Of a stretch of 42,984 nucleotides of DNA, positions 15,849 through 17,785 are shown piece after piece. The notes under the pieces were generated by a model. The model searched no databases, was not told the DNA's origin, and saw only the letters and a list, made by a program, of their open reading frames with translations. Source of the stretch: Deltaproteobacteria bacterium (GTDB taxonomy: Bacteria > Desulfobacterota > Deferrimicrobia > Deferrimicrobiales > Deferrimicrobiaceae); NCBI GenBank assembly GCA_020346465.1, contig CP070783.1, positions 1,848,773 to 1,891,756 on the forward strand. The letters are read 5' to 3'. Every line of letters begins with the position of its first letter. Within the stretch, counting starts at the first letter, position 1. The translations under genes and the position numbers were made by a program.

Positions 15849-16520
15849 TCAGCGGAGGGGCTCGATCAGCTGCGGCGAGTCCGTCTTCGGGTTGTTCACC
15901 GCCGTCCCGACGGGGAAGGCGGTCACCTCTTCGGGGGGGCAGGGGCGGAAGAGGCGCGCCAGCTCCTCGGGGTCCCGGACCTCGGGGGAGAGCCAGAGGT
16001 CGTAATCCGCCGGGGAGACGATCACGGGCATCCGGTCGTGGATCGGAAGGAGGAGTTCGTTCGCCGACGTGGTGAGAATCGTGCACGACTCGACCGCCGC
16101 CTGGCCCGGTCCCTCCCACGATTCCCAGAGCCCGGCGAACGCGAACGGCTTCCCGTCCGGACGGCGGATGTAGTACGGCTGCTTCCTGCCGTTGGTGCGC
16201 TTCCACTCGTAGAACCCGCTGGCCGGAACAAGACACCGCCTGCGCCGGATCGCGGAACGGAAGGCGGGCTTCCCGGCGGCCGTCTCCGCCCGGGCGTTGA
16301 TCATCCGGTCGCCGAGAGACGGATCCTTCGCCCAGGAGGGGATGAGCCCCCAGCGCAGCAGGACGACCTCCCGCGCGCCTCCGGAGGGCGGGATCCGCAC
16401 CGCGGCCACCGCCTGGGAAGGGGCGATGTTGTATCGAGGCGAAAGGGACGGCACCTCCGCCACCTCGAACGCCTCCGCGAGGGAGGCGGCGGTGTCGAAC
16501 AGGGTGAACCGCCCGCACAA
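15849..16520 (-). CDS. SOS response-associated peptidase, SRAP/YedK family (abasic-site crosslinker)
   Basis: Homologue of HMCES/YedK, which forms a thiazolidine crosslink with abasic sites in single-stranded DNA to protect them. 223 residues, full length. Catalytic features are present: C2 (exposed after Met removal), N31 in RYNIAPSQ, E105 in SGFYEWK and H161 in PIHDRMPVI. The start codon is TTG at 16520; family chemistry requires Cys directly after the initiator, so no other start is acceptable although the ribosome site (AAGAGA) is weak. It lies 39 bases after the Sec rhodanese stop on the same strand and converges with the sulfhydrylase operon. Confidence 0.93.
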   Translation of the reverse strand: MCGRFTLFDTAASLAEAFEVAEVPSLSPRYNIAPSQAVAAVRIPPSGGAREVVLLRWGLIPSWAKDPSLGDRMINARAETAAGKPAFRSAIRRRRCLVPASGFYEWKRTNGRKQPYYIRRPDGKPFAFAGLWESWEGPGQAAVESCTILTTSANELLLPIHDRMPVIVSPADYDLWLSPEVRDPEELARLFRPCPPEEVTAFPVGTAVNNPKTDSPQLIEPLR

Positions 16521-16559
16521 GACCGGTTTCTCTTTCCCCGCCCCGTCGGTGTCCCGGGG

Positions 16560-16970
16560 CTACTTCGTCTTCTCCGTCGGATACCCGGCGGAGATCCATT
16601 CGTTCCATCCTCCCTTCAGGGCGGACGCGTCCCTGAAGCCGAGAGCCCTGAGACGGAGCGCCGCACGGGCGCTCGTAGCCTCGTTGATTCAGGAGCAGTA
16701 CAGGACGATCTTCTTCCCTTTCGGATAGTTCGCGGACCAGCGATCGACGTTCCCGGGGTCCTCGAAGACCGCCCCCGCGATCTTCTTCGGGGCGCTTTTC
16801 CCCTCGATCCGGACGTCGATGACGATCAGGTCCGGGCTCCCGAGGAGGGCCTTGAGCTGCTCCTTCGCCATCCGGGGGGCCTCCTCCCCGGCCGCCGCGA
16901 ACGGAGTCATCCCCAGGGGAAAAAGCGCAGCCAGGAGCGCGACGATCAGCAATCCGCGTTTGCGTCCCAT
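16560..16970 (-). CDS. secreted rhodanese-like selenoprotein (UGA in the active-site loop, read as Sec94)
   Basis: Rhodanese-fold sulfurtransferase-like protein. ATG 16970 with GGGAGG upstream starts MGRKRGLLIVALLAALFPLG, a Sec-type signal peptide ending near AAAG (about residue 28). The fold follows: AKEQLKALLG, LIVIDVR, WSANYPKGKKIVLYCS, then an in-frame UGA (16691-16689). Translation continues as INEATSARAALRLRALGF, DASALKGGWNEWISAGYP to TAG 16560-16562, 136 residues in all. Family members commonly read YCxCPNEATSAR here, so UGA replaces the second, probably catalytic, cysteine; C92 remains. A strong hairpin fitting the bacterial SECIS rule lies 14 bases after the UGA. Without Sec the protein would lose its active-site loop and C-terminal helices. 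A conventional annotation would show a truncated 93-residue ORF. Location is periplasmic by inference. Confidence 0.88.
16656..16674 (-). promoter_or_regulatory. candidate bacterial SECIS hairpin of the rhodanese-like gene
   Basis: On the minus strand GAGCGCC (16674-16668) pairs perfectly with GGCGCTC (16662-16656) around the loop CGTGC (16667-16663). The loop starts 21 nt after the UGA and has G at its second position, followed by U, as in known bacterial SECIS loops. Seven Watson-Crick pairs make it the stronger of the two candidates. Confidence 0.75.
16689..16691 (-). other. UGA codon predicted to be decoded as selenocysteine (Sec94)
   Basis: In-frame TGA in the rhodanese-like gene: Y-C-S-UGA-I-N-E-A-T-S-A-R. 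Reading continues for 42 codons of family-typical sequence to a TAG stop. Confidence 0.85.
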
Positions 16971-16992
16971 GCACCAACCTCCCGTGTTCGTC

Positions 16993-17631
16993 CTACCTCT
17001 TCCGGATAAGATACACCCCGTCCCGCACCGGGAGCATGACTTTCTCCACCCGCCCGTCCTGTCTCACGATCCGGTTGAAGGAGACGATCGCCCGGGAATC
17101 CTCGTCCTGCGGAGAAAGGACGCGGCCGTACCAGAGGACGTTGTCGGCGGCGATCAGCCCTCCGCTCCGGAGGATCCGGACGCTCTCCTCGTAATAGAGA
17201 GGATAGAGCTCCTTGTCGGCGTCGATGAAGACGAAGTCGACGCTCTCCCCGGCGATCCCGCGCAGCGTCTCGAGCGCGGGAGCCAGGACGAGCCGGATCT
17301 TTTTCCCGTGGGGACTCCTGTCGAAGTACCCCTGCGCGATGGACGCGTACTCCTCCAGGATTTCGCACGTGACGAGTTCCCCGTCCTCGGGAAGCCCCTC
17401 CGCCATCATGAGGGCGGAATAGCCGGTGAAGCAGCCGATCTCCACCACCCTTCTCGCACCCGTGATCCGGACCAGCATCCGCAGGAGCGCCCCTTCGACC
17501 CTGCCGGTCAGCATCCCCGGCCGCCCCGTCTCCTCCTTCGTCCACCTCTCGAGTTCCTCGAGGAGGGGGGAGACGGGGCCGACGTGTTCCTCGATGTAGC
17601 GCTCCAGATCCTCGGGAAGATCCAGGGGCAC
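16993..17631 (-). CDS. class I SAM-dependent O-methyltransferase (caffeoyl-CoA/catechol OMT-like)
   Basis: A 212-residue soluble methyltransferase. The SAM motif EIGCFTGYSALMMA is at 64-77, the acidic motif CEILEEY at about 89-95, and the metal/substrate segment FIDADKELYPLYYE at 135-148 followed by GGLIAADNVLWYGRV. This is the layout of the cation-dependent OMT family (methyltransferase family 3). The start is GTG 17631, preceded by GGAGGAGG at five bases; a GTG 15 bases further upstream lies before that ribosome site and is less likely. The Sec rhodanese begins 22 bases after its stop on the same strand, so the two may be cotranscribed. The acceptor substrate is unknown. Confidence 0.88.
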   Translation of the reverse strand: MPLDLPEDLERYIEEHVGPVSPLLEELERWTKEETGRPGMLTGRVEGALLRMLVRITGARRVVEIGCFTGYSALMMAEGLPEDGELVTCEILEEYASIAQGYFDRSPHGKKIRLVLAPALETLRGIAGESVDFVFIDADKELYPLYYEESVRILRSGGLIAADNVLWYGRVLSPQDEDSRAIVSFNRIVRQDGRVEKVMLPVRDGVYLIRKR

Positions 17632-17785
17632 GGGAACCTCCTCCACCGGTCCGCGGGTCTTCCGTTCGCGCGGGCGACCGGGTGCGCATTGTCCACGACA
17701 CGATACAATATTACCGGAGTTCCCTCGATCCCGGCGAAGATCCTACTCTTCCCGGGGACGATCGGCCGCGGAGGAAACGGGGAGC

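Follow-up and report, generated by a model that had tools for sequence, protein, structure and literature searches.

A rhodanese gene in a 42,984-nucleotide stretch of deltaproteobacterial DNA (the window) contains an in-frame TGA close to its active-site cysteine, and the question is whether this codon ends the protein or is read as selenocysteine (Sec), and which role a Sec at this place would have. Standard ORF calling ends the gene at 16689, giving a protein of 93 amino acids. When TGA is translated as Sec (U), the frame starts with the ATG at 16970 on the minus strand, passes through YCS-U-INEATSAR (YCS-U being codons 91-94), and continues for 42 sense codons after the TGA up to codon 136 at 16561 and a TAG at 16558-16560, just as the original prediction had described it. 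The N-terminus (MGRKRGLLIVALLAALF...AAA), judged by eye, is basic, then hydrophobic, and has an Ala-rich cleavage-like site. Coordinates of the gene and its surroundings are listed in Table 1. The results presented below show that the internal UGA is almost certainly used to insert Sec into a rhodanese-type sulfur-handling protein.

Table 1. Features of the selenoprotein gene and its surroundings (positions of the window).
Feature	Position	Strand	Evidence
Gene for a rhodanese-like selenoprotein, predicted to be secreted, 136 codons plus TAG stop	16558..16970	-	Translation with TGA as U; NF041203; PF00581
TGA of codon 94, decoded in frame as selenocysteine	16689..16691	-	Position shared with four further genomes of the genus; about 90 loci with YCxU/YUxU
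Codon 92 (Cys in an invariant column), probably the catalytic-cysteine site of canonical rhodaneses	16695..16697	-	Alignment; directly after strand 87-91 in the model
SECIS hairpin, 7-bp stem GAGCGCC/GGCGCTC, loop CGTGC	16656..16674	-	Comparison of 92 relatives; bSECIS rules quoted in PMC13188914
Signal-peptide-like N-terminus, about residues 1-28	16887..16970	-	Seen in sequence; pLDDT 62-68 there
Ribosome-binding-site-like GGGAGG, upstream of ATG	16978..16983	-	Seen in sequence
O-methyltransferase-like gene, upstream neighbour, ends 22 nt before the ATG	16993..17646	-	Function by sequence resemblance only
SRAP/YedK-like (SOS response-associated peptidase) gene, downstream neighbour	15849..16520	-	Function by sequence resemblance only

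Insertion of Sec depends on a dedicated decoding system, and the genome (2.32 Mb, one contig) was searched for its components. SelA (552.7 bits in all), SelB (332 bits) and tRNA-Sec (74.2 bits) were all found above their cut-offs; together with SelD the set is complete, and the lack of a decoding system, which would have spoken against the original prediction, is not the case here. The selenophosphate synthetase gene selD (L142, G000:C1:501581-502384) contains one in-frame TGA in SSCAG-U-ASK with a stable hairpin downstream, and SelD is thus predicted to be a selenoprotein itself, which means that UGA would have to be read as Sec in another gene of this genome too. The search for a selenium-type formate dehydrogenase as an independent selenoprotein of the genome gave only weak matches without a TGA, and SelD was taken for this purpose in its place.

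The hairpin downstream of the TGA was compared to the model for bacterial SECIS elements (bSECIS), which asks for an apical loop of 3-9 nt, an upper stem of 4-16 bp, a G among the first two loop positions, a distance of 16-37 nt between UGA and loop, and an MFE of -7.5 kcal/mol or lower (PMC13188914). GAGCGCC-CGUGC-GGCGCUC starts 14 nt past the UGA and its loop starts 21 nt past the UGA with G second, which matches the hairpin of the original prediction exactly. It agrees with every rule of the published model (5-nt loop, 7-bp stem, G second, 21 nt), the energy being -12.4 kcal/mol for the stem alone, -13.5 with 36 nt and -20.1 with 40 nt. Synonymous codon shuffling of the window's own sequence reached the hairpin energy in 0.65% of trials. 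An Rfam scan of the window at gathering thresholds gave no match for the hairpin or anything else. Among distinct relatives, the full 5-bp core was present in 88 of 92, compared to 2.0 ± 1.4 expected from protein-preserving synonymous shuffling (maximum of 7 in 200 trials), and the apical-loop G (G22) in 92/92; these sequences share ancestry, so that the counts do not represent independent events. At pair 17/29, T-A was found in 48 relatives and C-G in 41, the changes on both sides falling on third positions of Ser and Ala codons; pairs 16/30 and 18/28 also showed two-sided changes, less often.

Only one of the 13 long-loop relatives without Sec has the full core, namely L105, in which the codon is TCA (Ser). 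Since it keeps a complete SECIS core, L105 seems to have exchanged Sec for Ser recently and to retain the SECIS as a relic. Four further loci (L115, L120, L121 and L125) likewise have a TCA Ser codon, one base apart from the TGA of the others. L120 additionally has a TGA, in frame but outside the motif, in place of the conserved tryptophan codon of GGW, possibly a nonsense mutation or a sequence error.

Conservation of the TGA itself was analyzed in genomes of the same genus and in more distant ones. In all four other genomes of the genus the TGA is found at the same codon and the frame runs to the same end; homologues in close relatives ending at this TGA would have contradicted the original prediction, but here conserved protein and SECIS continue beyond it. 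A search with the single protein as query yielded only three loci, and searching whole genomes gave far more. Among the matches listed for 395 sampled genomes of the phylum, 83 exceed the NF041203 cut-off and 74 of these carry the TGA; it is present at YCxU or YUxU in about 90 fetched loci from many families. Neither TAA nor TAG was seen at that codon among the fetched loci. Within the genus, dN is 0.05-0.19 after the UGA compared to 0.07-0.32 before it (0.022 and 0.020, respectively, for the closest pair), showing that protein divergence is no larger past the UGA than ahead of it. For some pairs of the genus, dN/dS past the UGA is not low because dS is also depressed there, as expected where RNA structure overlaps code. 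Direct Cys counterparts (YCSC) were found in L103 and L082; relatives with Cys in the loop do exist, as had been proposed, but they are rare, and most long-loop relatives without Sec have Ser or Ala.

These data bear directly on two other explanations for the TGA. It could be a true stop, with a truncated or decayed rhodanese as product, arising from a pseudogene or a sequencing error, and a plain ORF indeed ends there. We consider this very improbable, given that five genomes of the genus and about 90 loci from many families share this TGA, that protein and hairpin are conserved past it, that no TAA or TAG was seen in its place and that the genome has the Sec machinery. Alternatively, the UGA might be read as another residue, or be passed by readthrough without SelB. 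Here the codon lies within a Cys motif and is replaced by Cys in L082 and L103, the hairpin fits the bSECIS rules and tRNA-Sec is present, making this explanation extremely improbable. Pseudogene and non-Sec readthrough were both rejected on the grounds of conservation.

The protein belongs to a family that has already been described. It scores 136.6 bits with NF041203 (curated cut-off 115; residues 21-134 on profile positions 10-125 of 126) and 47.3 bits with PF00581 (gathering cut-off 22.2 bits, E=3e-12). The AlphaFold2 model has a mean pLDDT of 90, with 62-68 for the first 30 residues and 94-98 for the domain, and a structural search returned rhodaneses of the PDB as best matches; the rhodanese fold noted originally is therefore confirmed by profile, model and structure search alike. 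A review lists the family as 'rhodanese-like domain-containing protein form 3, CxU', with one Sec (PMC13188914), and a CxU form (form 2) of COG0607 has been listed as well (PMC9312934). From the NF041203 score and this listing it follows that the protein is a further member of a predicted family that was already known. The 'hidden selenoprotein' of the original prediction is thus supported as a selenoprotein but not as a novel one: the gene is a sound but ordinary example of an already catalogued family. No experimental or biochemical study of the NF041203-type family turned up in the open-licence literature searched. With a high degree of confidence, the product is a single-domain selenoprotein of the rhodanese-like NF041203 family, predicted to be exported, in which UGA-94 is decoded as Sec; the confidence refers to what was computed from frame, SECIS (conservation and pair switching), machinery and family.

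Several relatives deviate from the one-Sec arrangement or the domain layout of this protein. Eleven of them (L057, L063, L067, L078, L090, L099, L100, L102, L104, L110 and L127) have YUxU, with two in-frame TGAs six nt apart, and a single hairpin; its loop is located about 27 nt past the first TGA and about 21 nt past the second, both within 16-37 nt, and both UGAs are apparently served by this one hairpin. The UxU variant was absent from the reviews checked, one of which gives the family one Sec only (PMC13188914). Mapping UxU onto the tree required seven changes, at least five of them forced by supported branches, the short alignment limiting resolution; the state thus appears to have changed repeatedly. 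In nine loci (L027, L029-L032 and L038-L041), a DedA-like membrane domain is joined to a rhodanese that carries (F)YCxUPxEATSA and has a SECIS of the same type. These fusions score below the NF041203 cut-off (L031: 91 bits) and occur in several genera of the bacterial family to which the window belongs; none was found in the window's genome. Short rhodaneses with YCAUPxEA and a SECIS-like hairpin (L033, L034, L035 and L045) form a separate branch of the tree and lie far under the cut-off (L034: 50 bits).

The original prediction had placed Sec at the persulfide-forming position. In the model, strand 87-91 is followed by Cys92-Ser93-Sec94 and helix 95-109, with a pLDDT of about 98 around the motif. 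Position 92 is an invariant Cys (Sec in the UxU members, U being written as C in the alignment), and relatives can have Ser, Ala or Cys at residue 94. Alignment with rhodaneses gave a divided answer: in profile alignments to 3tp9 and 6pfz, Cys92 coincides with the Cys of these proteins and the loop contains a gap of two residues, whereas the alignment to both domains of 6mxv is gapless and puts Sec94, not Cys92, on the catalytic cysteine. Sec94 might therefore be the nucleophile that forms the persulfide (or selenenyl sulfide), with Cys92 as resolving residue, and residue 94 is as far from the Ser-Ala of the next helix as the Cys of canonical rhodaneses is from theirs. We regard this assignment as unlikely, since position 92 is always Cys or Sec while 94 varies, the 3tp9 and 6pfz alignments place Cys92 on the Cys of these proteins and Cys92 comes straight after the strand. 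Alignments, invariance and model together indicate with moderate confidence that Cys92, two residues before Sec94, probably occupies the canonical rhodanese cysteine site. Sec at +2 in a loop that is two residues longer makes a CxU pair likelier than a simple replacement of the persulfide cysteine.

A mechanism can be proposed. UGA-94 is almost certainly decoded by SelB and tRNA-Sec, directed by the bacterial SECIS hairpin 14-33 nt downstream. The protein, predicted to be exported, would act on sulfane sulfur outside the cytosol, where Cys92 would take up sulfur or form a mixed disulfide, and Sec94 of the CxU pair would resolve it via a selenenyl-sulfide bond and thereby accelerate thiol-disulfide exchange or the release of sulfur; for the location and the roles of both residues jointly, we see the chances as roughly balanced. 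More tentatively, the CxU pair (UxU in some lineages) could constitute a selenenyl-sulfide/diselenide redox couple at the rhodanese site outside the cytosol, giving selenium-dependent persulfide reductases or thiol oxidoreductases with the fold of a rhodanese and not ordinary sulfurtransferases. The neighbouring genes offer no clue to function. The O-methyltransferase-like gene adjoins the orthologue in L020, L021, L023 and L079 and was not found beside it in L022, and the SRAP/YedK-like gene adjoins it in L020-L023 and L079; in the other genomes of the genus the downstream neighbour is thus retained in 4/4 and the upstream neighbour in 3/4. The locus is a well-supported addition to a predicted selenoprotein family and suggests a +2 position for Sec relative to the cysteine of canonical rhodaneses. 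The many natural relatives with CxU, UxU, CxC, CxS and CxA would be well suited to experiments on the contribution of selenium to sulfane-sulfur chemistry.

Among known systems, NF041203 (rhodanese_LYCAU, 'rhodanese-related (seleno)protein') is like the window protein in length, YCxU motif and single Sec; the window protein has S-U-I-N-E and most members have (A/S/T)-U-P-N-E, a difference in local residues and nothing structural. Seleno-rhodaneses of form 1 (UxxS), form 2 and form 4 (UxxG), and likewise the TsoB rhodanese/DsbD fusion (NF045694), also combine the rhodanese fold with a Sec close to the active site; the window protein scores 19 bits with NF045694 (cut-off 805). All four differ from the window protein in Sec spacing or domain layout. 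Canonical single-domain Cys rhodaneses such as Alr3790 (3ilm), lp_1913 (3fnj) and GlpE (1gmx) have the same fold and strand-Cys-loop-helix layout (TM 0.65-0.69 to 3ilm and 3fnj), but in profile alignments with Cys in register their loop after the Cys is two residues shorter, and they contain no Sec.
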